A program made the position numbers and the translations under genes. Below the pieces are notes generated by a model that did not search any database, was not told where the DNA came from, and was given only the letters and a program-made list of their open reading frames with translations. From Streptomyces mobaraensis (GTDB lineage Bacteria > Actinomycetota > Actinomycetes > Streptomycetales > Streptomycetaceae), in contig NZ_CP083590.1 in NCBI RefSeq assembly GCF_020099395.1, positions 1,054,001 through 1,118,000 on the forward strand: a DNA stretch of 64,000 nucleotides, in the 5' to 3' direction. Shown here piece by piece: positions 108-16,600 of the stretch (positions are counted from its first letter, which is position 1; each line of letters opens with the position of its first letter).

Positions 108-306
108 GTCGTCGGCTCTGTAAATCCTTCGGGGGCCGACCCCGGAACCTGTGTCGGGCGTGGTGCGGGGCAGGTGCTGCCGTGGGAACGGGGGTTGTGT
201 CGGCTCTTGTGAGCCATCGCCGCATTTCGGAGGGGACACCCGCGCTGTTCTGCCGGCGGCGAACCCCCGGCCCGGTCGGACTCGACCATGACTACGGTCC
301 AGTCTC

Positions 307-1032
307 ATGACGACGATTACCACGCGCACGGTCCGGTACCCGGCCGACGGTCTGACGATGATCGGGCATCTCGCGCTCCCGGCCGGTGCCGACCGCCGGC
401 CCGCGGTCTTGATCGGGCCCGAGGGGACGGGGCTCAGCGACGTCGAGCGCCGCCGAGCCGACGCCCTGGCCGAGCTGGGATACGTGGCACTGGCCTTCGA
501 CCTCCACGGCGGGCGCTATCTGAGCGACATCGAGGAGATGCTGGCCCGTTGCCTGCCGCTGCTCGCCGACCCCGACCGGATGCGGGACATCGGCCGTGCG
601 GCGCTCGACGTGTTGCGCGCCGAACCGCGAGCCGACCCCGACCGGATCGCCGCTGTCGGCTACGGCACCGGGGGCGCGATCGCGCTGGAACTCGGGCGCC
701 ACGGCGTCAACCTGCGCGCGATCGGGGCAGTCAACGCACTGACCACCGGCAGGCCGGGGGAGGCCGCGCGCATCCGCTGCCCGGTGTGGGCCGGGGTCGG
801 GTCGGAAGACCCGATCATGCCGCCCGCGCAACGGAACGCCTTCACCGCCGAGATGCAGGCCGCGGACGTCGACTGGCGCCTCGTGGTCTACGGCGGCGCC
901 TTGCACGCCTTCCACCACCCGCCGGTCGACCATCCCGTGCGCCCCGGCGTCGGCTACCACCCGCGGCACGCACAGCGTGCCTGGCGCGATGTCGTCGACC
1001 TGCTCGCCGAGTGCCTGCCCGTGACGGAGTGA
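307..1032 (+). CDS. Dienelactone hydrolase-like protein lacking the nucleophile
   Basis: This 241-residue protein has the alpha/beta-hydrolase layout of the dienelactone hydrolase family: an N-terminal strand region with GPEGTGLSD, a nucleophile-elbow motif GYGTGG at residues 118-123, an acidic residue Asp168 in SEDPIMPP and a histidine at 200 in HAFHHP. Canonical members carry Cys (GYCFGG) or Ser at the position that is Gly120 here, so the catalytic nucleophile appears to be missing. The Asp and His are kept. The protein may therefore bind a ligand rather than hydrolyse one, or use an unusual mechanism. It stands alone and converges on the isocitrate dehydrogenase gene. An overlapping ATG nearby at 288 is in another frame and is not used. 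Confidence 0.8.
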   Translation: MTTITTRTVRYPADGLTMIGHLALPAGADRRPAVLIGPEGTGLSDVERRRADALAELGYVALAFDLHGGRYLSDIEEMLARCLPLLADPDRMRDIGRAALDVLRAEPRADPDRIAAVGYGTGGAIALELGRHGVNLRAIGAVNALTTGRPGEAARIRCPVWAGVGSEDPIMPPAQRNAFTAEMQAADVDWRLVVYGGALHAFHHPPVDHPVRPGVGYHPRHAQRAWRDVVDLLAECLPVTE

Positions 1033-1111
1033 TCCGGTCGGTCCGAGCTCGGGCGCTCGGCCGGCCGGCGGCGCGCCCCGGAGCATTGACGGGGGCCGAC
1101 CACCACGCGCC

Positions 1112-1146
1112 GGCCCGGCAAGCGGCATGAAGCCGCCCACCGGGCC
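1112..1146. terminator. Bidirectional terminator hairpin between convergent genes
   Basis: GGCCCGG at 1112-1118 pairs with CCGGGCC at 1140-1146, and an inner GCGGC/GCCGC stem closes on ATGAA. It lies between the convergent ends of the hydrolase-like gene and the isocitrate dehydrogenase gene, so it could stop transcription from both sides. Confidence 0.5.
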
Positions 1147-1168
1147 GGGGTACAACCGATGACAGCGA

Positions 1169-3540
<2,372 letters not shown>

Positions 3541-3547
3541 GCGGGCG

Positions 3548-5212
3548 TCAGGAGACGGCCGCCGCCGACGGCTCGGCCGCGCGCGGCCCGGGGACGGGCG
3601 TGACGTCGGGAGCGTCGCGTCCGTCGAGGACGGGGTCGGGGCCGGGCAGCCCGTCCTGGTGGGCGCGGACGCCGGCGCGGACGGCCCAGAAGTAGAAGCC
3701 GAGGGCGGAGACGCCGACCAGCGCGGTGTCGAGGCCGCCGGGGATCACCCCGTGGCCGCCGAACTCGGGGCTGCCGAGGGCGGAGATCAGGCCGGTCCAC
3801 AGCAGGAAGGCGGCCATCCACCAGGCGGGGGCGAACTGCTTGGCCAGGTTCCGCTCGCCCTTGCGGCGCAGCACGATCGCGGCGATGGGCAGCGAGACGA
3901 GAGTGAGCAGGGCGACCTTGCCGGTGTTGGGCCACTTGGACCAGTACAGGGCGCAGGCGGCGAACGCGAAGGTCAGCGGGCACAGCACGGCGGCGGCGGG
4001 CAGCCGGAACGGGCGCGGCAGCCCGGGCTTGGTCTTCCGGAAGACGCCGACGGCGATCGGGCCCATGAGGTACGAGACGACCATCGCGGCGGAGACGACG
4101 CTGGCCAGGGCCTCCCAGCTGTGCCCGATGGTGAGCAGCAGGAGGACGGAGAAGGCCAGGTTGAGCCACATGGCGGGGCGGGCGACGCCGTACCGCGGGT
4201 GCACCTCGGCGATCTTCTTGGGGAAGAAGCCGGTCTCGGCGAGGTTCTGCGCCAGGTACGCGGACGAGGCGACGTTGCCGATGTTGGCGCCGGACGGCGA
4301 GATGAACGCGCCGAACTGGAGCAAGGTGACGACCCAGTGCAGCATCAGCAGCTTGGCGAGGTCGGCGAAGGGCGAGGCGAAGTTCACGCCGTGCCAGCCG
4401 CCCGCCTCCGCGAGCCGCTCCGGCGGGACCGAGCCGAGGAAGGCGACCTGGAGGGCCAGGTAGATGACCAGGCCGAGGGAGAGCGCGCCGACGAGGGCGA
4501 GCGGGATGGCCCGGCCCGGGTTCTTGGCGTTGCCGCCGAGGTTGACGACGGCCTGGAAGCCGTTGAAGGCGAAGACGACGCCGGAGGCGGAGACGGCGGT
4601 GAGCACCGCGGACCAGCCGTTGGGGGCGAAGCCGCCGTGGGCGGTGAAGTTGCCGGTGTGGAAGCCGGAGGCGATGAGCGCGGCGATGGCGATGACCGGG
4701 ATGGCGAACTTCACCAGCGTCAGCAGGTTGTTCGCGCGGGCCAGCAGGGCGACGGACCAGTAGCAGGCCAGCCACAGGGCGACGGTCAGGAGCAGGGCCA
4801 TGCCGATGCCGGTGGCCGTCAGGTGGCCGTCCGCGACCAGGCCGCGGGCCCAGCCGAAGTTCCAGGACGCCATGTACTGGGTGCCGGCGATGGACTCGAT
4901 CGGGATCAGCGAGGCCGTGGCGATCCACACCGCCCAGCCGGTGACGAAGCCGAGCACCGGGCCGTGCGAGATGGAACCGAACCGGGCCATGGCGCCGGGC
5001 AGCGGGTAGGCCGCGCCGACCTCGGCGTACGACATGGCGATCATGCCGATGAAGATCGCGCCGATGACCCAGGCGACCAGCGCGGCGGGTCCGGCGACCT
5101 GGGCCGCCTGGCCGGCCCCGAAGAGCCAGCCGGAGCCGAAGATGGACCCCAGGCCGATCATGATCAGGGCGAAGAGGCTGAGGCCCTTCCGATTGGCCGC
5201 GCTCACATCCAC
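3548..5212 (-). CDS. APC-superfamily amino acid permease
   Basis: This is a polytopic membrane transporter of the amino acid-polyamine-organocation superfamily, expected to import an amino acid or amine with a cation. The protein has about 554 residues with roughly 12-14 hydrophobic segments. The first helix carries the family GSG substrate-binding signature in IGLGSIFGSGWLFGAG, and later segments include FAFNGFQAVVNLGGN. The C-terminus is charged and proline-rich. The GTG at 5212 (VDVSAANRKG) follows GGAAGAA at good spacing; the second GTG at 5206 is the alternative, and the longer frame upstream to 5401 is low-complexity and unlikely to be used. The substrate cannot be read from the sequence. 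Confidence 0.9.
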   Translation of the reverse strand: MDVSAANRKGLSLFALIMIGLGSIFGSGWLFGAGQAAQVAGPAALVAWVIGAIFIGMIAMSYAEVGAAYPLPGAMARFGSISHGPVLGFVTGWAVWIATASLIPIESIAGTQYMASWNFGWARGLVADGHLTATGIGMALLLTVALWLACYWSVALLARANNLLTLVKFAIPVIAIAALIASGFHTGNFTAHGGFAPNGWSAVLTAVSASGVVFAFNGFQAVVNLGGNAKNPGRAIPLALVGALSLGLVIYLALQVAFLGSVPPERLAEAGGWHGVNFASPFADLAKLLMLHWVVTLLQFGAFISPSGANIGNVASSAYLAQNLAETGFFPKKIAEVHPRYGVARPAMWLNLAFSVLLLLTIGHSWEALASVVSAAMVVSYLMGPIAVGVFRKTKPGLPRPFRLPAAAVLCPLTFAFAACALYWSKWPNTGKVALLTLVSLPIAAIVLRRKGERNLAKQFAPAWWMAAFLLWTGLISALGSPEFGGHGVIPGGLDTALVGVSALGFYFWAVRAGVRAHQDGLPGPDPVLDGRDAPDVTPVPGPRAAEPSAAAVS

Positions 5213-5636
5213 GTGATGTTCTTCCGTTCTGCCGGTGCCGCCAGGGGTGGCCTGGGACGGCCGGGACTTTCCGCGCTTTTCCCCGCTTCTCAGGCTTTTC
5301 GCGGGGTCTTCGAAGCCGCGACGGCCCCCGGGAGCGGACACACGGATGTGGCGGCGAGACGGCCGAGGACGTACAGAGCGACGTCGGACATAGTACGACA
5401 ACCAGCAGAAACGCTGTTACCGGCCCGGGCGGGAGACCTGACACAGCCGGTGCCGCGGGAACGCGGCCGGCCGTTCCCGCACGACCGGGTTCGCCACCGT
5501 GCGTACATAGGGCGGCACTCCTCGGTTGCCATCGGCCGTCTGCCGCGCCACGCGAAAGGGAATCGCGTACCGAAATAGGACTCCGCCAAGGGGAGGCATG
5601 GATTCCCAACCACATCGTTCACGCCACCGTCAACTC
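5213..5636. other. Intergenic region between permease and RiPP locus
   Basis: This stretch separates the leftward permease start from the promoter region of the peptide/P450 locus. Short frames exist on both strands, but none has a convincing start, codon bias or recognisable sequence. It probably holds the permease promoter. Confidence 0.4.
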
Positions 5637-5665
5637 TTGCTGTTACCCCCGCTAATACCTAACGT
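5637..5665 (+). promoter_or_regulatory. Candidate promoter of the RiPP precursor gene
   Basis: TTGCTG at 5637-5642 and TAACGT at 5660-5665 are spaced by 17 bases, close to the housekeeping-sigma consensus of actinobacteria. The predicted transcript would start about 70 bases upstream of the peptide ATG. The region is less G+C-rich than its surroundings, as expected for a promoter. The start point is not proven. Confidence 0.45.
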
Positions 5666-5745
5666 CGACAACGTCGCGAAGCGGTGATGGCCACACCGTG
5701 ACGAGACACGAAGAATCCCGAGATGGGTGGAGGGAGGTATCTGCC

Positions 5746-5829
5746 ATGCGCAAGATGATCCTGACCGGAGCGCTTTTCGCCCGGATTACTCGCAAGGACC
5801 GTCTCACCCTGCCGTACTCCTACTACTAG
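5746..5829 (+). CDS. Cittilin-like RiPP precursor peptide with a YSYY core
   Basis: This 27-residue frame begins MRKMILTGALFA and ends LTLPYSYY before TAG. A strong Shine-Dalgarno stretch (GGAGGGAGG, ending 5737) precedes the ATG. The C-terminal four residues fit the YxYY core of the cittilins (YIYY), bicyclic tetrapeptides made from a precursor of the same 27-residue length by a cytochrome P450 that joins tyrosine side chains through biaryl and aryl-ether bonds. Pro23 directly precedes the core, which suits release by a prolyl endopeptidase, the mechanism reported for cittilins with the protease encoded elsewhere. The leader is basic (K3, R13, R16, K17, R19) and hydrophobic early on. The only partner gene is the P450 157 bases downstream. 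Length, core pattern, proline and P450 are seen; the product structure is inferred. No TTA codon is present. Confidence 0.8.
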   Translation: MRKMILTGALFARITRKDRLTLPYSYY

Positions 5830-5846
5830 GCCGTACGGTGAAGAAG

Positions 5847-5880
5847 GCAGGCGGCCGCGGCGGCGACCGCGGCCGCCTGC
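5847..5880 (+). terminator. GC-rich hairpin between precursor and P450 (attenuator)
   Basis: Fourteen-base arms GCAGGCGGCCGCGG (5847-5860) and CCGCGGCCGCCTGC (5867-5880) form a perfect stem with a CGGCGA loop, 17 bases after the peptide stop codon. In a two-gene transcript this would act as a partial terminator or RNA-stability element. It would favour peptide over enzyme expression, as is common between RiPP precursors and their modifying enzymes. Confidence 0.65.
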
Positions 5881-5893
5881 GCCTTCCCCGTCT

Positions 5894-5933
5894 CCTTCCC
5901 GGCCGTGTCCTGGCTCCCTTCCCGGCCGTGTCC
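5894..5933 (+). repeat. 17-bp direct repeat upstream of the P450
   Basis: CCTTCCCGGCCGTGTCC occurs at 5894-5910 and again at 5917-5933, a 23-base period. It lies in the untranslated stretch between the hairpin and the P450 start. No function is evident. Confidence 0.6.
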
Positions 5934-5985
5934 CCACCTGCGCGTCCGCCCGCGTTCCCGCCCGCGCGATTCCTGCGAGGTCCCC

Positions 5986-7305
5986 GTGACGACCGCCGCC
6001 TCCTCACCCGTCGGAATACCCGGACCCGGCGGGGATAAATACCTCGGAAATCTCCACGCGTTCAGCAGCGATCCACTGGGTTTTCTCACCTCGTGCTCCC
6101 GGACGTACGGAGACGTCGTACGGCTCGGCGCGAACAATGTGCTGCTGACATCCCCGGGCGATGTCGAGCGAATGCTGGTCGACCGGAATTCCAAATTCTC
6201 CAAGGCGAGCGCGGACACCCGACGCGGTTCACGGCGGCAGGGTTTTCCCCGCTCGATGATGAACAGCGACGGAGCCGACTGGCAGGCCAAGCGGCACCGG
6301 ATGCAGCCCGCCTTCGGCCGGGGACTGACCACCCGGGCCGCCGAGATCGTCGACGCCCAGGGCGAGCGCATGCTCGCCGGCTGGCGGACCGGCACCCCGC
6401 GCACCCTCCAGGACGACGTCTCGGTCATCACCCTGCGGCTGGTGACGTCCCTCATGTTCGGCGACGAGTTCGGTGACGAGGACACCGCGGAGGTCGCCCG
6501 GCTGGTCGCGCCCATCATGGACCTCTCGACCTCGCCCGTGCTGCTGCCCGAATGGGTGCCGACCCCGCGCAAGCTGCGCATCCGGCGCTCGATGGCCCGG
6601 GTCGACCGTACGCTGCGCGCCCTGGCCGCCTCGCCCGCGGCCGCGGACCCCGACCGGGCTCCCGTCCTGCACGCCCTCGTCCACGGGGACCCGAAACCCA
6701 CGCCGGACGAGCTGCGCGACGAGCTCGCGACCTTGATCATGGCCGGGTTCGAGACGACCAACGACGCCGTCGTGTGGACCAGCGTCCTCCTCGCCCGCCA
6801 CCCCGGGGCCGCCGAGCGGGTGCGCGCGGAGGCGCAGGCCGCCTTCGCCTCCACCCCGGCCGGTCTGGCCCGGATGGAGGCCCTCCCCTACACCCACGCC
6901 GTGGTCCGCGAGGCCCTGCGCCTCTACTCGCCCGTCTGGATCACCAGCCGGGACGCCATGGAGGACATGGAGTTCAGCGGCCATGTCGTCCCCGCCGGCA
7001 CGACGGTCACCGTCAGCCAGTGGGTCAACCACCGCGATCCGCGCCACTGGGAGTCCGCCGAGGAGTTCCGCCCCGAACGCTGGCTCCCCGGCGCCCCCAG
7101 CGCCCCGCGCGGCTCCTATTTCCCCTTCGGCCTCGGCCCGCGCGTGTGCATCGGCGCCGCGGTCGCCACGACGGAAACGGTCCACATCGTCGCCGACATC
7201 TGGCGCCGCTTCCGGCTGGAACTCCTCGCGCCCGAGCGCATCAGGCCGCGTCCGGCGCTGGCCCTCCAGCCGATGGGCGTGGAGGTCGTGCCGCGCGCGT
7301 GGTGA
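5986..7305 (+). CDS. Cytochrome P450, predicted tyrosine cross-linking enzyme
   Basis: The 439-residue protein has all P450 hallmarks: an I-helix AGFETTND at 253-260 (Glu replaces the usual Asp before the Thr pair), ExxR at E309-R312, FRPERW at 361-366 and the haem loop FGLGPRVCIG with the axial Cys388. The start is GTG at 5986 (VTTAASSPVG), preceded by GAGG at five bases; the longer frame from 5905 runs through the repeat region and is unlikely. It follows the 27-residue peptide gene and is probably co-transcribed with it across the hairpin. By analogy with CitB of the cittilin pathway it would couple the tyrosines of the YSYY core. No ferredoxin or reductase gene lies nearby, so redox partners would be shared. 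P450 identity is certain; the substrate is inferred from position. Confidence 0.93.
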   Translation: MTTAASSPVGIPGPGGDKYLGNLHAFSSDPLGFLTSCSRTYGDVVRLGANNVLLTSPGDVERMLVDRNSKFSKASADTRRGSRRQGFPRSMMNSDGADWQAKRHRMQPAFGRGLTTRAAEIVDAQGERMLAGWRTGTPRTLQDDVSVITLRLVTSLMFGDEFGDEDTAEVARLVAPIMDLSTSPVLLPEWVPTPRKLRIRRSMARVDRTLRALAASPAAADPDRAPVLHALVHGDPKPTPDELRDELATLIMAGFETTNDAVVWTSVLLARHPGAAERVRAEAQAAFASTPAGLARMEALPYTHAVVREALRLYSPVWITSRDAMEDMEFSGHVVPAGTTVTVSQWVNHRDPRHWESAEEFRPERWLPGAPSAPRGSYFPFGLGPRVCIGAAVATTETVHIVADIWRRFRLELLAPERIRPRPALALQPMGVEVVPRAW

Positions 7306-7406
7306 GGCGCTCCGGCCGTCAGGACGAGCACGCCGGCCCGGTTCGGAGGTGATCGTCCCGCCCGCCCCCGGCCGGTATGACGAGGAGGGCGGGTCACGGC
7401 CGTCGG

Positions 7407-8288
7407 TCACTCCGGAGCCCGCTCCCCCGCCGGCTCCCCGCCCTCCGGATCGGCCCCGGGCAGCAGCAGGATCCCCCAGGTGACGAGCGCCGCGCCGACG
7501 CCCTCCGGGACGAGCCACCACCCCGTCCGCACCCGTTCCCCGTAGACGACGCTCCCCAGCACCAGGCTGACCAGCGCCTCGCCCAGGGTGAGCGCGGGCT
7601 GGGAGGCCACCAGCGGCCCGGACTCCATGGCGTTGGCCAGCAGGAAGAGGGCGCAGGCGCCGGCGGCCACGAAGGCGTACGTCTGCCAGGCGGTGAAGAA
7701 GGCCCCGGCGCCGTGGTCGTCGAAGGCGCCGGTGGCCGCCTTCATCAGGGTGGCGGTCAGGGCGTACGCGATCGCCGAGGCGGCGGCGAACAGCGCGGCG
7801 CGCGCCCGGCCGCGCGGCCGGGTCAGGGCACCCGCCGCGCAGAGCGCCACGGCCGCCCCGGCGCCGGCGAGGGTGACGGTCCACCGGGCGCCGGAGGCGG
7901 TGTCGGCGCCTCCGCCCGGGGCCGCGGCCGCCAGCCCCAGGCCGAGCCCGGCCGCGACCATCAGCGACGCCGCCCAGCCGGCGGCCGGCAGCCGCCGCCG
8001 GGCGAAGGCGCAGGCGATGAGCAGGGTGAAGGGGAGCTCGGTGACCAGGATGGGCTGGACCAGCGACAGCGAGCCGAGGGTCAGCGCCAGCGCCTGGCAG
8101 GCCGCGGCGCCGACGATCACGGCGATGCCGCCCAGCCACGCCGGGCTGCCCACCAGGTGCCGCACCAGCCGCACGCTGAACGCGTCCCCCTCGGGTACGG
8201 TCCGCGCGGCGATCCGCTGGAGCACCGTCCCCAGGGCGTTCCCTCCGGCCGCGAGCAGCGCGACCAGCGCGGGTACCAGACCACCCAC
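7407..8288 (-). CDS. DMT/EamA-type membrane transporter
   Basis: The 293-residue protein consists of about ten hydrophobic segments in two similar halves, as in drug/metabolite transporters of the EamA type. The first half starts GLVPALVALLAAGGNALGTV and the second contains ALTATLMKAATGAF. The C-terminus is an acidic tail with EPAGERAPE. GTG at 8288 has GGAGG nine bases upstream. The gene converges on the P450 and reads away from the hydroxyproline regulator; its substrate is unknown. Its orientation argues against it being part of the peptide locus. Confidence 0.85.
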   Translation of the reverse strand: MGGLVPALVALLAAGGNALGTVLQRIAARTVPEGDAFSVRLVRHLVGSPAWLGGIAVIVGAAACQALALTLGSLSLVQPILVTELPFTLLIACAFARRRLPAAGWAASLMVAAGLGLGLAAAAPGGGADTASGARWTVTLAGAGAAVALCAAGALTRPRGRARAALFAAASAIAYALTATLMKAATGAFDDHGAGAFFTAWQTYAFVAAGACALFLLANAMESGPLVASQPALTLGEALVSLVLGSVVYGERVRTGWWLVPEGVGAALVTWGILLLPGADPEGGEPAGERAPE

Positions 8289-8429
8289 CTCGCCGTACCT
8301 CCCGTCCCCGGCACCGGCCTCTCACGGTGTCAGCGGCGCCGGCCCGATCCAGGCGGCGCGGCCGTTCACGGACGTGCGTCACCCGCGCGGCGGCGGACCC
8401 CCGCGCGAGCCCGGCACGGCGCCACCGCC

Positions 8430-9152
8430 TCAGCGGCGCGCGGCGGCCGCCTTCCGGACGACGGGCCCGACGGACCGCTCCGCGGCCGCCGCGTTCGCGG
8501 CCCAGAGGGAGCGGACGTGGCCGAGGTGCCGGGCCATGCACGCCTCGGCGGCCTCCGCGTCGCCCGCGAGCATCAGGTCGAGGAGTTCGACGTGCTCCTC
8601 GGCCGACGGGATGAGCTCGTCGCGCTCGTCGAGGGCGGTGAGGCCGTAGAGGCGGGAGCGCTTGCGGAGCTCGCCGACGGTCTCGACCAGGCGCTCGTTG
8701 CCGGAGAGGCCGAGGAGCGTGAGGTGGAACTGCCGGTCGGCCTCCAGGTAGCCGATGAGGTCGTGCTCGCGGGCGGCGCGCACGATCTCCTCGGCGACCG
8801 GGCGGAGCGCCTCCAGGTCCGCGCGGGAGGCGGTCCGGGTGATCCGGCCGACCATGGGCACCTCGATCAGCGTGCGGATCTCGGTGTACTGGTCGAGGTC
8901 GCGCTCGTCGACCTCGGTGACCCGGAAGCCCTTGTTGCGGACGGGCTCGACCAGTCCCTCCCGGGCCAGGTCGAGCATGGCCTCGCGGACGGGCGTCGCG
9001 GAGACGCCGAAGTCCTCGGCGAGGCCGGGCGCGGAGTAGACCTCGCCGGGGCGCAGCTCACCGGAGATCAGCGCGGCGCGCAGGGCGTGGGCGACCTGGT
9101 CGCGCAGGCGCTCCCGGGCGGTGATGAGATTGCGCTGCTTGAGATGGCCCAT
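8430..9152 (-). CDS. GntR-family (FCD) regulator of hydroxyproline catabolism
   Basis: This 240-residue regulator has an N-terminal winged helix (about residues 10-75, including FGVSATPVREAMLDLAREGLV) and an FCD effector domain (about 85-220) with the metal/ligand-binding pattern of the VanR/FadR group (D..FH at EADRQFHLTL, later H residues in EEHVELLD and ARHLGHV). It lies immediately downstream of the hydroxyproline operon on the same strand. A perfect CAATGT-C-ACATTG palindrome stands 42 bases upstream of its ATG, suggesting autoregulation, and related sites precede three other genes of the pathway. The effector is probably hydroxyproline or a pathway intermediate, by inference. AAAGGGA precedes the start. 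Confidence 0.92.
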   Translation of the reverse strand: MGHLKQRNLITARERLRDQVAHALRAALISGELRPGEVYSAPGLAEDFGVSATPVREAMLDLAREGLVEPVRNKGFRVTEVDERDLDQYTEIRTLIEVPMVGRITRTASRADLEALRPVAEEIVRAAREHDLIGYLEADRQFHLTLLGLSGNERLVETVGELRKRSRLYGLTALDERDELIPSAEEHVELLDLMLAGDAEAAEACMARHLGHVRSLWAANAAAAERSVGPVVRKAAAARR

Positions 9153-9193
9153 GGTGTCCCTTTCGCGCCCCGATGGACTGGACCACCAGCGTA

Positions 9194-9206
9194 CAATGTC
9201 ACATTG
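9194..9206. promoter_or_regulatory. GntR operator, site 1 (perfect palindrome)
   Basis: CAATGT and ACATTG flank a single C, giving a perfect 13-base palindrome in the 63-base gap between the aldehyde dehydrogenase stop and the GntR gene. FCD-type GntR proteins bind short palindromes with TGT/ACA half-sites, so this is the best candidate operator of the regulator gene itself. Three weaker relatives occur at 12581, 16573 and 19978. Confidence 0.7.
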
Positions 9207-9215
9207 CGTTTTGGG

Positions 9216-10616
9216 TCACCCCGCGTGGTGCGGCAGCAGCGTGTACGTGCGCTCGGCCGTGTAGAACTCCAGGGCGGCGCGGCCCTGTTCACGCGGTCCG
9301 TGGCCGGAGGCGCCGGTGCCGCCGAAGGGGAGGTGGAAGTCGACGCCGGTGGTGGGGGCGTTGACGCGGACCATACCGGTGCGGAGCGCGTCGAGTCCGT
9401 ACAGGGCGGCGTCCAGGTCCGCCGTGTGCACCGAGGTGACCAGTCCGTACGGGACGGAGTCGGTGATCCGTACGGCCTCTGCGAGGCCGGCCGCGGGCAG
9501 CAGGGCCGCGATCGGGCCGAACACCTCCTCGGTGAGCAGCCGGTGCCCCGCCGGCACCTTCTCGACGAGCGTCGGGGCCGCGTACCACCCGGGCCCCTCG
9601 GGCGCGGGCCCCGCGGCGAGGACGGACACGCCGTCCGCCGCCTCGGCCGCCCGGTCGCGGGCCCGCGCGGAGATGACGGGCCCGCAGACCGTCGCGGGAT
9701 CGGCCGGATCGCCGGCCGGCAGGGCGCGGACCGCCTCGGCCAGGGCCTCGCGGAGGGGGTCGAGGGCGGCGCCCACGGCGATGATCCGGCTGGTGGCGGT
9801 GCACTTCTGGCCCGCGTAGCCGGCGACGGCGGCGGCGATGTGCGCGGCGGCCCGTCCGATGTCGGCGTCGGGGAGGACGATCGCGGCGTTCAGCCCGCCC
9901 GTCTCGGCCTGGACGGGCACGCCGCGGGCGGTCGCCGCGGCGACGACGTGCGCGCCGACGGCCGTCGAGCCGGTGAAGGAGACCGCGTCGGCGGCGTCGA
10001 GCACGGCGGCACCCTCCTCCGCGCCGCCCGGGACGACCGTGAACACCCCGTCCGGGACGGCCTGTCGGACGATCCCGGCGAGGCGCAGGGCGCAGACGGT
10101 GGCCTCGGGCGCGGGTTTGAGGACGACGGTGTTGCCGGCCGCGAGGGCGGGCGCGGCCTTCCAGCTCGGGATGGCGAAGGGGAAGTTCCACGGCGTGACG
10201 AGGCCCGCGACGCCGTGCGGGCGGCGGCGGGTCAGCAACAGGCCCGGCCCGGCGGCCGGTTCGTGGACGGCGCCGGTCGGCTCGTAGGGGGCCTGGGCGT
10301 AGTACCGCCAGATCGCGACGGTACGGGCCACCTCCGCGCGGGCCTCGGTGACGGGCTTGCCCACCTCCCGTACGGCGAGGAGGGCCAGTTCGGCGGCGGC
10401 GTCCTCGATCGCCGACGCGACCGCCGAGAGGGCCGCCGAGCGGGCGGCGGCTCCGGCCGTCCGCCAGGCCGGCTGCGCGGCGCGGGCCCGTGCGACGGCG
10501 TCGGCGGCGGCGCGCGGGCCGGGGGCGGTGAACTCGGTGAGGATGTCGGCCGGATCGGCCGGGTTGGCGGAGCTATAAGTAACGGAGGTGTGGGAAGAGG
10601 CCGGGGCGGGGGTCAC
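9216..10616 (-). CDS. 2,5-dioxovalerate (alpha-ketoglutarate semialdehyde) dehydrogenase
   Basis: This 466-residue aldehyde dehydrogenase has the complete active site: oxyanion Asn144 in TPWNFPF, the NAD(P) loop FTGSTAVG around 214-221, general base Glu238 in AETGG and nucleophile Cys272 in GQKCTAT. In the hydroxyproline pathway the last step oxidises 2,5-dioxopentanoate to 2-oxoglutarate, and the operon context points to that role. The GTG start at 10616 overlaps the stop of the epimerase gene (GTGA), so translation is probably coupled. Aldehyde dehydrogenase family membership is certain; the substrate comes from the neighbours. Confidence 0.92.
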   Translation of the reverse strand: MTPAPASSHTSVTYSSANPADPADILTEFTAPGPRAAADAVARARAAQPAWRTAGAAARSAALSAVASAIEDAAAELALLAVREVGKPVTEARAEVARTVAIWRYYAQAPYEPTGAVHEPAAGPGLLLTRRRPHGVAGLVTPWNFPFAIPSWKAAPALAAGNTVVLKPAPEATVCALRLAGIVRQAVPDGVFTVVPGGAEEGAAVLDAADAVSFTGSTAVGAHVVAAATARGVPVQAETGGLNAAIVLPDADIGRAAAHIAAAVAGYAGQKCTATSRIIAVGAALDPLREALAEAVRALPAGDPADPATVCGPVISARARDRAAEAADGVSVLAAGPAPEGPGWYAAPTLVEKVPAGHRLLTEEVFGPIAALLPAAGLAEAVRITDSVPYGLVTSVHTADLDAALYGLDALRTGMVRVNAPTTGVDFHLPFGGTGASGHGPREQGRAALEFYTAERTYTLLPHHAG

Positions 10617-11617
10617 AGGAGGAAGCCTCCGGGGAAGGGGTCGTCCGGGTCGAGGAAGTACTGGGCGGTGCCGGTGATCCAGGCGCGTCCGGTGATGGCG
10701 GGGACCACGGCCGGCACCCCGCCGACCTCGGTCTCCCCGACCAGCCGGCCGGTGAACCGGGTGCCGATGAAGGACTCGTTGACGAAGTCGCGGCCGAGCG
10801 GGAGGGCGCCGCGGGCGTGCAGCTGGGCCATGCGGGCGGAGGTGCCGGTGCCGCAGGGCGACCGGTCGAACCAGCCGGGGTGGATGGCCATCGCGTGCCG
10901 CGAGTGGTGCGCGTCGGAGCCGGGCGCGGCCAGGTAGACGTGCTTGAGCCCGCCGATCTCCGGGTGTTCGGGGTGGACGGGCCGGTCCGGCGAGGCGTTC
11001 ACCGCGTCCATGACGGCGAGCCCGGCGGCCAGCAGCTCGTCCTTGCGGGCCCGGTCGAACGGCAGCCCGAGAGCGTCGAGTTCGACGAACGCGTAGAAGT
11101 TGCCGCCGAAGGCCAGGTCGTACGTCACCGTGCCGTACCCGGGGACGTCCGCCTTCCGGTCCAGGGCGACGCAGAACGACGGCACGTTGGTGAGCGTGAC
11201 CGCCTTCGCCGCGCCGTCCTCCACCCGTACGTCGACGGTGACGAGGCCGGCCGGGGTGTCGAGGCGGACGGTGGTGACGGGTTCGGCGACCGGGACCATG
11301 CCCGTCTCGACGAGGACGGTGGCGACGCCGATGGTGCCGTGGCCGCACATCGGCAGCACCCCGGAGACCTCGATGTAGAGGACGCCGTAGTCGGCGTCGG
11401 GGCGGGTCGGGGGCTGGAGGATCGCGCCGCTCATCGAGGCGTGGCCGCGCGGCTCGTACATCAGGAGGGTGCGGAGGTGGTCCAGGTGCTCCATGAAGTG
11501 CCTCCGCCGCTCGGCCATGGTGGCGCCGGGGATCGCCCCGACGCCGCCGGTGACGACGCGGGTGGGCATGCCCTCGGTGTGCGAGTCGACGGCGTGGAAG
11601 ACGTGGCGGGTGCGCAC
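10613..11617 (-). CDS. 4-hydroxyproline 2-epimerase (proline racemase family)
   Basis: The 334-residue protein has both catalytic cysteines of true racemases/epimerases: Cys91 in MCGHGTIG and Cys255 in SPCGTGTSAR. This separates it from trans-3-hydroxyproline dehydratases, where the second or first position is Thr. It should convert trans-4-hydroxy-L-proline to cis-4-hydroxy-D-proline, the first step of the bacterial route. GTG at 11617 (VRTRHVFHAVDSHTEG) follows AAAGGA; longer upstream extensions overlap the deaminase gene and are not used. It lies 25 bases after the deaminase gene and overlaps the dehydrogenase gene by four bases. Confidence 0.94.
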   Translation of the reverse strand: MRTRHVFHAVDSHTEGMPTRVVTGGVGAIPGATMAERRRHFMEHLDHLRTLLMYEPRGHASMSGAILQPPTRPDADYGVLYIEVSGVLPMCGHGTIGVATVLVETGMVPVAEPVTTVRLDTPAGLVTVDVRVEDGAAKAVTLTNVPSFCVALDRKADVPGYGTVTYDLAFGGNFYAFVELDALGLPFDRARKDELLAAGLAVMDAVNASPDRPVHPEHPEIGGLKHVYLAAPGSDAHHSRHAMAIHPGWFDRSPCGTGTSARMAQLHARGALPLGRDFVNESFIGTRFTGRLVGETEVGGVPAVVPAITGRAWITGTAQYFLDPDDPFPGGFLL

Positions 11618-11642
11618 GGACGTCCTTTCGCGCGGGTGGGGG

Positions 11643-12563
11643 TCAGTGGTGGCCGTCGGCGACGGCCTTCTCGGTGGCGGCGCGCACCAGGGCGTCGGCC
11701 TCCGGGGCGAGCGGCAGCCGCGGCGGCCGGCTGCGACCGCCGTGGAACCCGACGACGTCCATGGACACCTTGATGGCCTGCACGAACTCCGTCCGGGAGT
11801 CCCAGCGCAGCAGCGGGTGGAGGGAGCGGTAGAGCGGCAGGGCGGTGCCGAGGTCGCCGTCGGCGGCGGCCCGGTACAGGGCGGCGCAGGAGGCGGGGAA
11901 CGCGTTGGGGTACCCGGCGACCCAGCCGACGGCCCCGGCGGTGGCCAGCTCCAGCAGGACGTCGTCGGCACCGACCAGCAGGTCGAGCCCGGGCGCGAGT
12001 TCGGCGATCTCGTAGGCCCGCCGGACGTCGCCGGAGAACTCCTTGACGGCGACGATCGACCCGTCGCGGTGCAGGGCGGCGAGCAGCTCGGGGGTCAGGT
12101 CGACCTTGGTGTCGACGGGGTTGTTGTACGCGACGACCGGCAGCCCGGCCCGGGCGACCTCCGCGTAGTGGGCGCGGACGGCGCGCTCGTCGGCGCGGTA
12201 GCCGTTCGGCGGCAGCAGCAGCACGGACCCGCAGCCGGCCTCGGCGGCCTGCTCCGCCCACCGCCGCGCCTCGCCCGCGCCGTACGCCGACACCCCGGGC
12301 ATCACCCGGGCCCCGTCCCCCGCCGCCTCGACGGCGGTCCGCACGACGCGCGCCCGCTCGTCGTCGGTGAGCGTCTGGTACTCGCCGAGCGAGCCGTTGG
12401 GGACGACGCCGTCGCAGCCGCCGTCGAGCAGACGGCGGACGTGGGCGGCGTACGTGTCGTGATCGATCGTCAGGCCGCCCGTCAGGTCGTCGCGGAACGG
12501 GAGCGCGGTGGCGACCATGATGCCGCGCCAGGGGTGGGTGGTGTTCCAGGAGGTGGCGGTCAT
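11643..12563 (-). CDS. 1-pyrroline-4-hydroxy-2-carboxylate deaminase (DapA family)
   Basis: The 306-residue protein is a TIM-barrel aldolase of the dihydrodipicolinate synthase family, with the Schiff-base Lys174 in VAVKEFSGD and the catalytic Tyr146 in VVAYNNPV. In hydroxyproline clusters this family deaminates pyrroline-4-hydroxy-2-carboxylate to 2,5-dioxopentanoate, and the flanking epimerase, dehydrogenase subunits and aldehyde dehydrogenase support that reading. ATG at 12563 has AGAAGGG upstream. A GntR-type operator lies 18 bases upstream of the ATG, implying that a promoter starts here. Confidence 0.92.
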   Translation of the reverse strand: MTATSWNTTHPWRGIMVATALPFRDDLTGGLTIDHDTYAAHVRRLLDGGCDGVVPNGSLGEYQTLTDDERARVVRTAVEAAGDGARVMPGVSAYGAGEARRWAEQAAEAGCGSVLLLPPNGYRADERAVRAHYAEVARAGLPVVAYNNPVDTKVDLTPELLAALHRDGSIVAVKEFSGDVRRAYEIAELAPGLDLLVGADDVLLELATAGAVGWVAGYPNAFPASCAALYRAAADGDLGTALPLYRSLHPLLRWDSRTEFVQAIKVSMDVVGFHGGRSRPPRLPLAPEADALVRAATEKAVADGHH

Positions 12564-12580
12564 GCCGATGCCCTTCTGTG

Positions 12581-12593
12581 GTGTGTGACATTT
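12581..12593. promoter_or_regulatory. GntR operator, site 2
   Basis: GTGTGT-G-ACATTT matches the half-site TGTsACATT of the perfect operator at 9194. It stands 18 bases upstream of the deaminase gene, between it and the dehydrogenase alpha gene, consistent with an internal promoter for the deaminase-epimerase-dehydrogenase-regulator part of the operon. Confidence 0.5.
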
Positions 12594-12664
12594 TACTGGG
12601 GGGTTGGGGGCGCCCACAAGAGGGCGGTGCCCCGGCGCCGGTTGGCGGACCAGCCCTCGGCGGA

Positions 12665-14509
12665 TCAGCCCTCGGCGGGTGGGCGCGGGGCGGGTGGGCG
12701 CGGGGCGGGGATGTCCCGTTCGGCGGGCGCGGACGGCTCCCGTTCTTCGCGCGCTTCCGGAGTGCCAGGGACCCGCCGCTCGAACTCCCCTGGCACGCAG
12801 GGGTCCCCGCCGCCGGACCCGGCAGGCCCACCGGTCGCATCAGGGGTCTCCGGGACCTCCCGGCCCCCGGCGGGCCCGCACGGCACGGAGGACTCCGTAC
12901 CGCCGGACGCGCCCGCCCGGGTGGGCTCCCGCCCGTCACGGCCGCCGGCACCGTGCGGCAGGCCCTGCCCGCCGGGCGCGGCGGGGGCGCGGCGCTCCGG
13001 TTCGTCGAGCGCCGCCGGCGCGCCCAGCCGTACGCGCTCCGGTTCGTCGAGCGCCGCCAGCGCCCCCAGCGGTACGGGGACGGAGAACGGCCGGCGGGCG
13101 GGGGCCGGCGGCGGTGCGGTCCCCTCCGCCGTACCGCCGCCGGCAGCGGTGGCGAGGCAGGTCACGGCGGTGCCGCAGACGCGGCCCTGGCACCAGCCCA
13201 TGCCCGCGCGGGTGAGCAGTTTGACGGTCCGCGCGTCGTGGGCGCCGAGGTCGGTGACCGCCTCGCGGACGTGGCCCGCGGTCACCTCCTCGCAGCGGCA
13301 CACGTCCGTGTCGTCGGTGAGCCATCCCGTCCAGCCCTCCCCCGGCGCGTGGGCGGCGGCCATCGCGTCGGCGAAGGACCGCAGCCGGTCACGGCGGCGG
13401 CGCAGGCCGCGCAGGCGCCCGCCCGCGACGGGACCGGCCCGGCCGGAGAGCCGGAGGGCCGCCGCGGTGCCCGCCAGTTCGCCTTCCAGCCAGGCGAGTT
13501 GCCAGCCGCCGACGCCCACGGTCTCCCCCGCGGCCCAGAGCCCGGGGACGGTGGTCTCCTGGAGGCCGTCCACGACGAGGGCGTGGGTGCCGTCCGGGGT
13601 GGTCCGGGTGGCGCAGCCGAGGCCGGTGGCCAGTTCGACGCGCGGCTCCAGGCCGTGGCCGACGGCGAGCGCGTCGCAGGCGATCCGGCGGCCGGTGCCG
13701 GGGACGGGCCGCCAGTCGCGGTCGAGGCGGGTGACGGTGACGGCCTCCACCCGGTCGGCGCCGTGCACTTGGGTGACCGCGCTCCGGGTGCGGACCGGCA
13801 CCCGGTGGCGGAGCAGCGCCGAGCCGTGGAGCGCCGCTTCGAGCGCCTTGTGCGGGTTGACGGCGAGGGCGCGCGGGTGGCGGGCGTAACCGAGGTAGCC
13901 GGACGCCTCGACGACGGCCGGGACCCGCGCCCCGGCGGCGGCCAGCGAGGAGGCGACGGCGAGCAGCAGCGGCCCGCTGCCCGCGACGACGACCCGCCTC
14001 CCGGGCAGGACGAGCCCGGACTTCAGCATCGCCTGCGCGCCGCCCGCGCCCACGACTCCGGGCAGGGTCCAGCCGGGGAACGGGAGTTGGCGCTCCTGGG
14101 AGCCGGTGGCCAGCAGCACAGCGCGGGCCCGGACGCGGACCGGCTCGCCGCCGTCGCCGTCCGGCCCGGTGAGCGCATGGACGCTCCACGCGGCCTCGTC
14201 GTCCCTCGTCACGGCCCAGACGTGGTGCGCGGCGAGGTGGTCGACGCGGCTCGCCGCCAGCCGGGCGCACAGGGCGGCGAAGGCGGACCGCCCCTGGAGT
14301 GCCCCCTGCCGCTGTCTCCGTGCCGCCAACTCCGGTGCGGCGTACCGGAAGTACTGCCCGCCGGGCCGGTCGGCGGCGTCGAGGAGCGCGACGGACAGCC
14401 CCAGCCGGGACGCGGCGACGGCACCGGCCGTCCCGGCGGGTCCCGCGCCGATCACCGCGAGGTCGTAGCCACCGCGCGGAGCCCGGGGCTCAGACGGCGA
14501 GTCCGGCAC
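12665..14509 (-). CDS. D-hydroxyproline dehydrogenase, FAD/NAD subunit with BFD-type iron-sulfur domain
   Basis: This 614-residue flavoprotein begins with a dinucleotide fold (AVIGAGPAGTAGAVAA), has a second one (VVVAGSGPLLLAVASSLA), and carries a C-terminal [2Fe-2S] cysteine set (CRC followed by CQGRVC) as in the HcnB/SoxA-like subunits of heteromeric proline and hydroxyproline dehydrogenases. It would pair with the small iron-sulfur protein (its gene overlaps by 20 bases) and the other FAD subunit to oxidise D-hydroxyproline. The family normally ends soon after the cysteine domain. Here about 125 further residues follow, rich in Pro, Gly, Glu and Ala, and they contain a duplication of AALDEPER. 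Start GTG at 14509. Confidence 0.9.
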   Translation of the reverse strand: MPDSPSEPRAPRGGYDLAVIGAGPAGTAGAVAASRLGLSVALLDAADRPGGQYFRYAAPELAARRQRQGALQGRSAFAALCARLAASRVDHLAAHHVWAVTRDDEAAWSVHALTGPDGDGGEPVRVRARAVLLATGSQERQLPFPGWTLPGVVGAGGAQAMLKSGLVLPGRRVVVAGSGPLLLAVASSLAAAGARVPAVVEASGYLGYARHPRALAVNPHKALEAALHGSALLRHRVPVRTRSAVTQVHGADRVEAVTVTRLDRDWRPVPGTGRRIACDALAVGHGLEPRVELATGLGCATRTTPDGTHALVVDGLQETTVPGLWAAGETVGVGGWQLAWLEGELAGTAAALRLSGRAGPVAGGRLRGLRRRRDRLRSFADAMAAAHAPGEGWTGWLTDDTDVCRCEEVTAGHVREAVTDLGAHDARTVKLLTRAGMGWCQGRVCGTAVTCLATAAGGGTAEGTAPPPAPARRPFSVPVPLGALAALDEPERVRLGAPAALDEPERRAPAAPGGQGLPHGAGGRDGREPTRAGASGGTESSVPCGPAGGREVPETPDATGGPAGSGGGDPCVPGEFERRVPGTPEAREEREPSAPAERDIPAPRPPAPRPPAEG

Positions 14510-14801
14510 GGCCGTGTCCTTCCTGCGTGGTGACGGCGTCCCCGGGCCGGGCGGGCACCAGGCAGGCCCGCCGGTTGGGCTCCCCGTTGACGGTGGCGAG
14601 GCAGTCGTAGCACTGCCCGATGCCGCAGAACGCGCCGCGCGGCCGGCCGCCCTCACGCGTCGTCCGCCAGGCGAGCACGCCGGCGCCCCACAGCGCGGCG
14701 GCGATCGTCTGCCCGGGCAGGGCGCGGACGGGACGCCCGTCGAAGCTGATCTCGAACGCGGCGGTGCCGGACGGAAGGCCGGGGGCGCGGCGGCGCGGCA
14801 T
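14490..14801 (-). CDS. D-hydroxyproline dehydrogenase, small [2Fe-2S] subunit
   Basis: The 103-residue protein has the ferredoxin-like cysteine pattern FCGIGQCYDC followed by a fourth Cys in NRRACLV, and a beta-grasp start with FEISFDGRPV. Such HcnA/SoxD-like proteins carry electrons within three-subunit amino acid dehydrogenases. The ATG at 14801 is preceded by AAAGGAG. The gene overlaps the FAD/NAD subunit gene and is separated from the other FAD subunit gene by about 590 bases of repetitive, apparently non-coding DNA. Confidence 0.92.
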   Translation of the reverse strand: MPRRRAPGLPSGTAAFEISFDGRPVRALPGQTIAAALWGAGVLAWRTTREGGRPRGAFCGIGQCYDCLATVNGEPNRRACLVPARPGDAVTTQEGHGRAGLAV

Positions 14802-15388
14802 GGCGGGGCTCCTTTCGGTGGGACGGCCGACGGTGGGACGGCTGGCGGTGAGGTGGTTTGCGGTGCGGTGGTTTACGGTGCGGTGACTTGGGGCGCGGCG
14901 GCTTGGGTGCGGTGACGCGGGCGCCTTCTCGGCTCGTCCACCCGACGGCGATTCGGGCGACGACGCTCTCGCCGCCGCGAACCGCTCGGGCGCACCCGGC
15001 CAGGCACTGAGGCGATACGGGCGGCCCGGCGCCAAGGCGGGACGCCCGGCCCGACGCCGAGACGGCGCGAGCAACCCGGCGCTGACGCGGTGCCGGCGGG
15101 CCGGGCCCGTCGACGCGCCGGGGCCGACCGCGAAGCCGCCGCGTTCGCGCACGGCCGCGCACCCGGCGACGCCGCGATCCGGCAGGGCAGGTACCTGCGG
15201 CGGGGGGAGGCTGGGTCGACGCGCCCAACGCACGGAGCGGCCACGGAACCACCACCCGGCGCCCCCGCGCCGGCACGCACCGCACCCCGCGAAGCCGCCG
15301 ACCGCGAACGCGCCCACCGGCGGAGCGAGCGGCGCGGCACAGCCGACCAACCGAGGCACACGTACCGCAACCGCCCCCTCCATCGCCC
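14802..15388. other. Long gap inside the hydroxyproline operon
   Basis: In related gene sets the dehydrogenase subunit genes are usually adjacent, but here 587 bases separate them. The part next to the iron-sulfur gene is a 15-bp tandem array. The rest is very G+C-rich, with long frames but no recognisable protein on either strand. It is likely non-coding. Confidence 0.5.
14816..14905. repeat. 15-bp degenerate tandem repeat, six units
   Basis: Six consecutive 15-base units, most beginning CGGTGnGG (for example CGGTGCGGTGGTTTA), run directly upstream of the iron-sulfur subunit ribosome binding site. Units are imperfect. They may represent slippage expansion of the leader of this gene. Confidence 0.75.
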
Positions 15389-16564
15389 TCACGCCACCAC
15401 CCCCGCGAACCGGCCCGGCGCGAACGGCCCCGGGTCGACCGGGGGCCGCTCACCCACCATCAGGGCGGCGGTCAACGCGCCCGTGGCCGGGGCGAGTCCG
15501 ATGCCCGCGCCCTCGTGGCCGCAGGCGTGCAGCAGGCCGGGCACGTGCGGGTCCGGGCCGATGGCGGGGAGGTGGTCGGGGAGGTACGGGCGGAAGCCGG
15601 CGTACGTGCGCGTCGCGCGCACCGTGCGGAGGACCGGGAACAGGGTGGTGGCCCCGGCCGCGAGGCGGCGCAGCGCCTCCGTGGACAGGGTGCGGTCGAA
15701 GCCGACCCGCTCCCGGCTGGCGCCGATGAGCACCGGGCCCGCCGGGGTGCCTTCGACCACCGCCGAGGTCTGGAGCGCGGCCGAGCCGCTGGCGACGTCG
15801 GTGACGTAGTCCGCCGCGTACACCTTGTGCCGGACGACGCGCGGCAGCGGTTCGGTGACGAGGACGAAGCCGCGGCGCGGCAGGACGGGCAGGTGCGCCC
15901 CGGCCAGCCGGGCCACCTCCCCGCCCCAGGTGCCGGCGGCGTTGACCACGTACGGCGCGTGGACCGTACCGGCGGGCGTCCGGACGCCGCGCACTTCGCC
16001 GCCCGGGCCGGTGAGGACGGCGGTGACCGGTTCGCCGGTCCGCACCCGGGCGCCCGAGGCGCGCAGCAGGTGGGCGGCGGCGAGGGCGGGCTGGACCTGC
16101 GCGTCCTGCGGGTAGTGGACGCCGCCGGCGAGGCCCGGGGCGAGGTGGGGTTCGAGTCCGCGCAGTGCGTCCGCCGGTACGTCGACGGCGGTCACGCCCG
16201 CCGCGGCCTGCCGGGCGGCGAACGCCCGCAGCGCGGCGGCCCCGGCGGGCCGGGAGGCGACGACCAGACCGCCCTTGACCTCGTACTCGACGCCCGTGGG
16301 GAGCTCGTCGGCGAGCTCCCGCCACAACGACGTGGACAGCAGGGCCAGTTCGAGCTCGGGGCCCGGTTCCTTGTCGGAGACGAGGAGGTTGCCCTCGCCG
16401 GCGCCGGTCGTGCCGCCCGCGACGGGTCCGCTGTCGATCACGGTGACGGACAGGCCGGCGCGGGCGGCGTAGAAGGCGCAGGCGGCACCGACCGCGCCCG
16501 CGCCGACCACGACGACGTCCGAGGAGTCTCGGGACCCGGGACGGGAACGGGGACGGGGAGGCAT
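15389..16564 (-). CDS. D-hydroxyproline dehydrogenase, DadA/SoxB-type FAD subunit
   Basis: The 391-residue protein is a D-amino-acid-oxidase-fold flavoprotein: the N-terminal VVVVGAGAVGAACAFYAARAG binds FAD, GEGNLLVSD follows, and the C-terminal FRPYLPDHLPAIGP / CGHEGAGIGLAPATG closes the FAD site. It is the catalytic subunit expected to oxidise cis-4-hydroxy-D-proline together with the two proteins encoded downstream. I chose ATG at 16564. No Shine-Dalgarno sequence precedes it, while a -10-like TATTAC lies only six bases away, so the message may be leaderless. A GntR-type operator falls inside the candidate promoter. Confidence 0.92.
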   Translation of the reverse strand: MPPRPRSRPGSRDSSDVVVVGAGAVGAACAFYAARAGLSVTVIDSGPVAGGTTGAGEGNLLVSDKEPGPELELALLSTSLWRELADELPTGVEYEVKGGLVVASRPAGAAALRAFAARQAAAGVTAVDVPADALRGLEPHLAPGLAGGVHYPQDAQVQPALAAAHLLRASGARVRTGEPVTAVLTGPGGEVRGVRTPAGTVHAPYVVNAAGTWGGEVARLAGAHLPVLPRRGFVLVTEPLPRVVRHKVYAADYVTDVASGSAALQTSAVVEGTPAGPVLIGASRERVGFDRTLSTEALRRLAAGATTLFPVLRTVRATRTYAGFRPYLPDHLPAIGPDPHVPGLLHACGHEGAGIGLAPATGALTAALMVGERPPVDPGPFAPGRFAGVVA

Positions 16565-16569
16565 ACGCA

Positions 16570-16600
16570 GTAATATTTCACATTGCACACCGCCTGCCAA
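16570..16600 (-). promoter_or_regulatory. Promoter with GntR operator, site 3
   Basis: Reading leftward, TTGGCA (16600-16595) and TATTAC (16575-16570) are separated by 19 bases, with ATATTA as a closer-spaced alternative -10. The 13-base element ATATTT-C-ACATTG at 16573-16585 overlaps the spacer and -10, a position suited to repression. It controls the first gene of the hydroxyproline dehydrogenase operon. Confidence 0.55.

Follow-up and report, generated by a model that had tools for sequence, protein, structure and literature searches.

A two-gene cittilin-family RiPP locus with a Tyr-Ser-Tyr-Tyr core in Streptomyces mobaraensis

In the 64,000-nucleotide stretch of Streptomyces mobaraensis DNA that we analyzed (the window), a 27-codon peptide gene (5746 to 5829, + strand) is followed by a complete cytochrome P450 gene (probably 5986 to 7305, + strand), and the pair is a real two-gene member of the catalogued cittilin family. 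We assign a probability of roughly 0.9 to the reading that this unit is a self-contained RiPP operon working in the steps proposed below. The initial annotation had described a minimal locus made of a short gene with a ribosome-binding site and a P450 gene, and both genes were found where it placed them; the flanking frames scanned, from 292 to 16600 of the window, contained nothing that resembles a further RiPP gene and no methyltransferase domain. The features of the unit are as follows.

5629 to 5639, + strand: conserved upstream element GTCAACTCTTG, matched exactly in 11 of 18 loci, with one mismatch in locus L011
5637 to 5665, + strand: promoter-like pair TTGCTG - 17 nt - TAACGT, overlapping GTCAACTCTTG, read from conservation
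5729 to 5737, + strand: ribosome-binding site GGAGGGAGG, read from the sequence, 8 nt before the ATG at 5746
5746 to 5829, + strand: precursor peptide gene, 27 amino acids, with MRKMILTGALFARITRKDRLTLP leader and YSYY core, matching NF038373
5847 to 5880, + strand: 14-bp GC stem-loop between the genes, from folding, 17 nt past the precursor stop
5986 to 7305, + strand: cytochrome P450, putative Tyr cross-linking enzyme, 439 amino acids, heme motif FGLGPRVCIG, PF00067

We propose that the precursor, with its MRKMILTGALFARITRKDRLTLP leader and YSYY core, would be transcribed from its own promoter and that the GC stem-loop past its stop codon most likely ends some transcripts, so that less P450 than precursor would be made through attenuation. 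The P450 would then recognize the conserved leader and link the three core Tyr residues via two oxidative bonds, which on the family pattern would be a biaryl and a diaryl ether, as in cittilin. Finally, a Pro/Ala-cutting host protease, presumably encoded elsewhere, would free an unmethylated bicyclic Tyr-Ser-Tyr-Tyr. The predicted product is this tetrapeptide minus 4 H, C30H30N4O9, with a computed [M+H]+ of 591.2086.

The family assignment comes from the precursor. Translation of 5746 to 5829 gives MRKMILTGALFARITRKDRLTLPYSYY and a stop, and this peptide matches the NCBIfam model NF038373 (“cittilin family RiPP precursor”) over positions 1 to 27 of 27, scoring 60.5 bits (cut-off, 34), which supports the cittilin-like precursor claimed earlier. 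The same cut-off was passed by 8 of the 8 relatives tested (of 17), including Amycolatopsis, Nocardiopsis, and Streptomyces. Carriers of NF038373 amounted to at least 5 of 394 family genomes, at least 1 of 396 phylum genomes (that of our strain), and at least 5 of 392 genus genomes, or at least 8 distinct genomes (lower bounds, with up to 20 candidates scored per genome; our strain was counted in all three samples and genome G335 in two). None of 14 control genomes was a carrier. A scan for the pattern KDRLTxxYxYY-stop over genome contigs of 84,980 species, from which our own or near records may be absent, gave 13 loci, every one actinobacterial; no myxobacterial locus was among the matches, so the pattern covers less than the whole cittilin family.

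The 13 pattern loci and 8 family-model loci (window included), 3 of them common to both sets, make up the 18 distinct loci compared here. A P450 homologue lies downstream of the precursor in all 17 other loci (truncated by the stretch end in L016 and L026, and with a frameshift in L013), and in the alignment the leader is conserved over its full length. The P450 frame of L013 (genome G851), a YSYY locus, breaks near residue 343, by either a real frameshift or a sequencing error. Precursor codon changes relative to close orthologues were mainly synonymous (synonymous to other, with the stop codon counted, 7:1 for L009, 4:1 for L010, and 6:2 for L013), and such changes no longer dominate relative to distant precursors (4:6 for L011, 4:10 for L025, and 5:15 for L027). 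A chance open reading frame was ruled out by the family-model match, the synonymous changes in close orthologues, and the linked P450.

Cittilin-type loci in actinomycetes are already known ground, given earlier genome mining and named compounds. The available text of PMC12299652 describes the mining of 20,399 actinomycete genomes with the cittilin A family serving as reference and cites another survey that reports 1057 P450-modified RiPP clusters, and shandoamide, the syrinamides, and citreamide are called cittilin-type in the accessible part of PMC12352619. The cittilins of Myxococcus xanthus (CitA/CitB/CitC) need a 27-amino-acid precursor that is modified by the P450 CitB, according to the portion of PMC8708641 available. 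The present locus is like them in precursor length, the putative bridged tetrapeptide, the single P450 partner, and NF038373, with CitA and CitB likened by description; it differs in its Ser core, in having no CitC-like methyltransferase nearby, and in giving no match to the PF02897 prolyl oligopeptidase model. Biarylitides and atropopeptides are also P450-cross-linked RiPPs, but, as far as the available texts describe them, biarylitide precursors have about 5 amino acids and atropopeptides have different bridge sets. That same portion of PMC8708641 states that neither cittilins nor biarylitides are antimicrobial.

The core had been presented in the initial annotation as a new one. Instead, YSYY was the commonest core found (10 of 18 loci, ours included), ahead of YIYY (3), YMYY (2), YVYY (2), and YNYY (1), and a unique new core was therefore rejected. 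It ends 8 of the 13 pattern precursors, those of S. lilacinus, S. netropsis, S. abikoensis, S. endocoffeicus, S. rugosispiralis, S. violaceusniger, Streptomyces sp. UNOB3_S3, and Streptomyces sp. Ncost-T10-10d. The three core Tyr residues are present in 18 of 18 loci, a count shaped by selection, as the 13 pattern loci were chosen for YxYY and the 8 family-model loci were found with a model containing the core. Position 2 is variable (S, I, M, V, or N), and in cittilin it is Ile. Together with the preceding residue, the ends are PYSYY (10), AYIYY (3), PYMYY (2), PYVYY (2), and PYNYY (1); the Pro to which attention had been drawn is indeed there but, being found before the core in 15 of 18 precursors, with Ala in the three YIYY precursors, it is no distinguishing mark of our locus. 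RP-66453 is bicyclic and unmethylated, with an Ile-type residue in its ring, and we infer that its genetic counterpart is more likely a YIYY locus such as L011. The available text of PMC8397687 presents RP-66453 as a metabolite of Streptomyces whose ring is an isomeric cycloisodityrosine. Literature searches outside subscription papers showed none on a YSYY product among the matches listed.

The downstream enzyme matches PF00067 with an E value of 3.5e-64 (frame taken from 5905). No stop interrupts its frame between a point before 5905 and the end at 7305, and the longest listed version starts at GTG 5905, but the in-frame GTG at 5986, which gives 439 amino acids, is the likelier start because the four closest homologues have 439 to 441. 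Identity to the P450s downstream of the other precursors ranged from 41 to 90% in the 13 pattern loci and from 62 to 90% in 7 family-model loci. Other Streptomyces NF038373-type loci (S. abikoensis, S. netropsis, S. lilacinus, S. violaceusniger, and others) have the same LPYSYY end and a near-identical leader, and among the LPYSYY pattern loci the P450 is 80 to 90% identical in five that are complete and 79 to 85% identical over the available part in L016 and L026. In Streptomyces sp. Ncost-T10-10d, the precursor ends in APYSYY and the P450 is only 63% identical to ours. Myxococcota homologues among the best 120 of 285 include those of Pendulispora (60%) and of Archangium and Myxococcus hansupus (46 to 48%, with M. 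hansupus at 48%). A plasmid search with the P450 gave weak matches in 24 records, none of which covered 80% of the query, and among the genes beside the P450 we saw neither a redox partner nor an exporter.

A P450 tree of 15 rows (L013, L016, and L026 were left out) grouped the KAYIYY rows (100/99) and likewise the APYMYY and APYNYY rows (100/99), and it placed six LPYSYY rows with four APY(S/M/N)YY rows in a weak 10-row fork (86/89). The YSYY rows form no separate clade. Since the P450 of Ncost-T10-10d groups with the M/N-core rows (100/100), Ser at core position 2 may have been retained or may have originated more than once.

The bicyclic Tyr-Tyr chemistry of the putative product is assigned by analogy with the cittilins, and the foremost alternative concerns this step: the P450 might make one bond only, or other bonds (C-N or Tyr-aliphatic), so that the product would be no cittilin-type bicycle. 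Related RiPP P450s form C-C, C-N, and C-O bonds, and ApyO changes bond type with motif changes, as the available text of PMC13192836 reports. The best-scoring NCBIfam P450 model for our enzyme is ApyO, at 158 bits far below its cut-off of 525, and the best 60 of 257 matches to solved structures are general P450s (best, 7wzl, 3.4e-43). The precursor family, the precursor length, and all three Tyr residues nevertheless match the cittilins, and we consider the alternative unlikely, albeit worth keeping in mind.

Two further parts of the cittilin pathway were examined for the locus, methylation and core release. That a methyltransferase is missing, as the initial annotation noted, was borne out in the frames from 292 to 16600, and no methyltransferase domain was found in 20 selected flanking genes of six relatives (L009, L011, L012, L013, L015, and L020). 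This is no special feature, however, since the available part of PMC8708641 gives it for other microorganisms, whose genomes are said strictly to lack a methyltransferase; therefore, we do not count CitC as defining the cittilin family. O-methylation by CitC is the last step of the pathway in the accessible text of PMC11285071.

Cittilin is reportedly released by a prolyl endopeptidase encoded elsewhere in the genome, and as a host function this enzyme is likewise not counted as defining the family. Release of this kind, which the initial annotation mentioned for cittilins, is unsupported for our strain: PF02897 (the prolyl oligopeptidase propeller domain) had no match in its genome, with 5 of 14 control genomes positive, and was absent from 6 of the 7 other carriers (G290 has one), hence from 7 of 8 carriers, and Ala precedes the core in 3 of 18 precursors. 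Another post-proline peptidase is possible, proteins with a PF00326 domain being present (13 matches, three of them strong, with E values of 3.9e-46, 6.3e-44, and 3.2e-41). Overall, a Pro/Ala-cutting peptidase fits the data better than a strict prolyl oligopeptidase does.

Between the two genes, 15 of 18 loci have a stem similar to ours that starts 17 to 31 nt past the precursor stop. Twelve loci have a common register, with 131 of 132 cells paired, a value equaled by 1 of 2000 shuffles, although the arms were chosen by eye from folds and kinship among the loci inflates the pairing counts. Three pairs show compensated changes, two of them in our locus. Stem length, with G-U pairs counted (the stem of L013 needs them), was matched by at most one control stretch in 14 of 18 loci and by 4 of 392 control stretches of our own window. 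Folding of the whole 156-nt intergenic gap showed a modest gain (z, -1.81; 8 of 200 shuffles as good). L020, L026, and L027 have no long unbroken stem, with one mismatch in L026 and a bulged stem in L020, and L025 has a 15-pair stem in the first 80 nt after the stop; a 16-row alignment of the gap, with L025 and L027 left out, was kept out of these counts. The stem-loop has no T-run, and a terminator scan made no call there. A more elaborate version of the operon, which we regard as improbable, would make the stem-loop a translation-sensitive switch, on which ribosomes at the Tyr-rich core act, coupling P450 production to translation of the precursor, and would combine it with core release by a Pro/Ala-cutting enzyme other than prolyl oligopeptidase.

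In 11 of 18 loci, GTCAACTCTTG-N20-TANNGT is present upstream of the precursor and ends 58 to 84 nt ahead of its ATG; L011 is alike with its one mismatch. The element has no copy in the other 6 of 18 loci; L012, L014, and L015 (the YMYY/YNYY group) have TTGACC-N17-TAGCCT in its place, and L020, L025, and L027 have neither type of upstream stretch. A generic sigma-70 promoter scan of our locus found none, and so the reading of TTGCTG - 17 nt - TAACGT as a putative promoter is drawn from conservation. The 11-mer occurs as a single copy in the 7.67-Mb genome (0 for the reversed control pattern), and a wider regulon was rejected on that account.

The surroundings of the unit differ from those of its relatives. 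In the window, its upstream neighbor is an amino-acid permease gene on the opposite strand; downstream lie a DMT transporter gene and, from 8430 to 16600 on the - strand, genes for a GntR regulator, an aldehyde dehydrogenase, a proline racemase, a DHDPS-like protein, and FAD and 2Fe-2S proteins, which we take to resemble a hydroxyproline-use operon. Comparison of 11 flanking window genes with the stretches of the 17 relatives (1e-10) gave one match, a 31% identical FAD protein in L025; the P450 served as the positive control and matched in 18 rows. Two convergent oligopeptide-transporter ATPase genes (identified by Pfam in L009 and L011) flank the unit in six relatives (L009, L010, L011, L017, L022, and L024). 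In L016, the upstream member of this pair is present before the stretch ends, and within the limits of the test the other 10 relatives show neither. Our copy lies away from this junction, at 1.06 Mb, and the matching junction of the same genome, at 2.686 to 2.690 Mb, contains other frames and no P450 match. At this junction (G000:C1:2685800-2691000, L042), a 185-amino-acid frame resembles a sigma factor by eye. A functional tie to the oligopeptide importers was rejected; since the importer pair is present in our genome without the unit, with other frames between the operons, the junction appears to be no more than an insertion site. In L015, the YNYY locus, DDE transposase-like genes lie on both sides of the unit (6386 to 7846 and 9771 to 10943) and are a possible route of movement.

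Because the upstream element, peptide, stem-loop, and P450 are all kept at this different site, the unit, about 5629 to 7305, looks self-contained as judged from its sequence. The other chromosomal place might suggest a copy that became degenerate or silent after relocation, but the open frames, the P450 heme motif, the upstream element, and the stem-loop are kept and the P450 shares 96% identity with its counterpart in Streptomyces sp. URMC 126 (among the best 120 of 285 homologues), which makes such decay very improbable. Weakest of all is the idea that the short gene encodes a regulatory leader peptide whose Tyr codon cluster and stem-loop control the P450 gene in the manner of an attenuator: the Tyr codons stand right before the stop and the stem-loop follows in 15 of 18 loci, but the whole leader is conserved, beyond the Tyr codons, and the peptide matches a precursor family named for a known compound (NF038373; PMC8708641, in the text available), so that we give the idea hardly any credence.

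The comparison of loci corrects the claim of novelty for YSYY, which is the commonest core among the sampled actinobacterial loci. The residues found at core position 2 (S, I, M, V, and N), partly in step with P450 clade, form a natural substrate series for these P450s. Indications that 7 of 8 carriers lack the canonical prolyl oligopeptidase are a small testable addition to the biology of the family, and further testable additions are a predicted Ser-containing, unmethylated cittilin of defined mass, a shared upstream element, and a stem-loop with compensated pairs.
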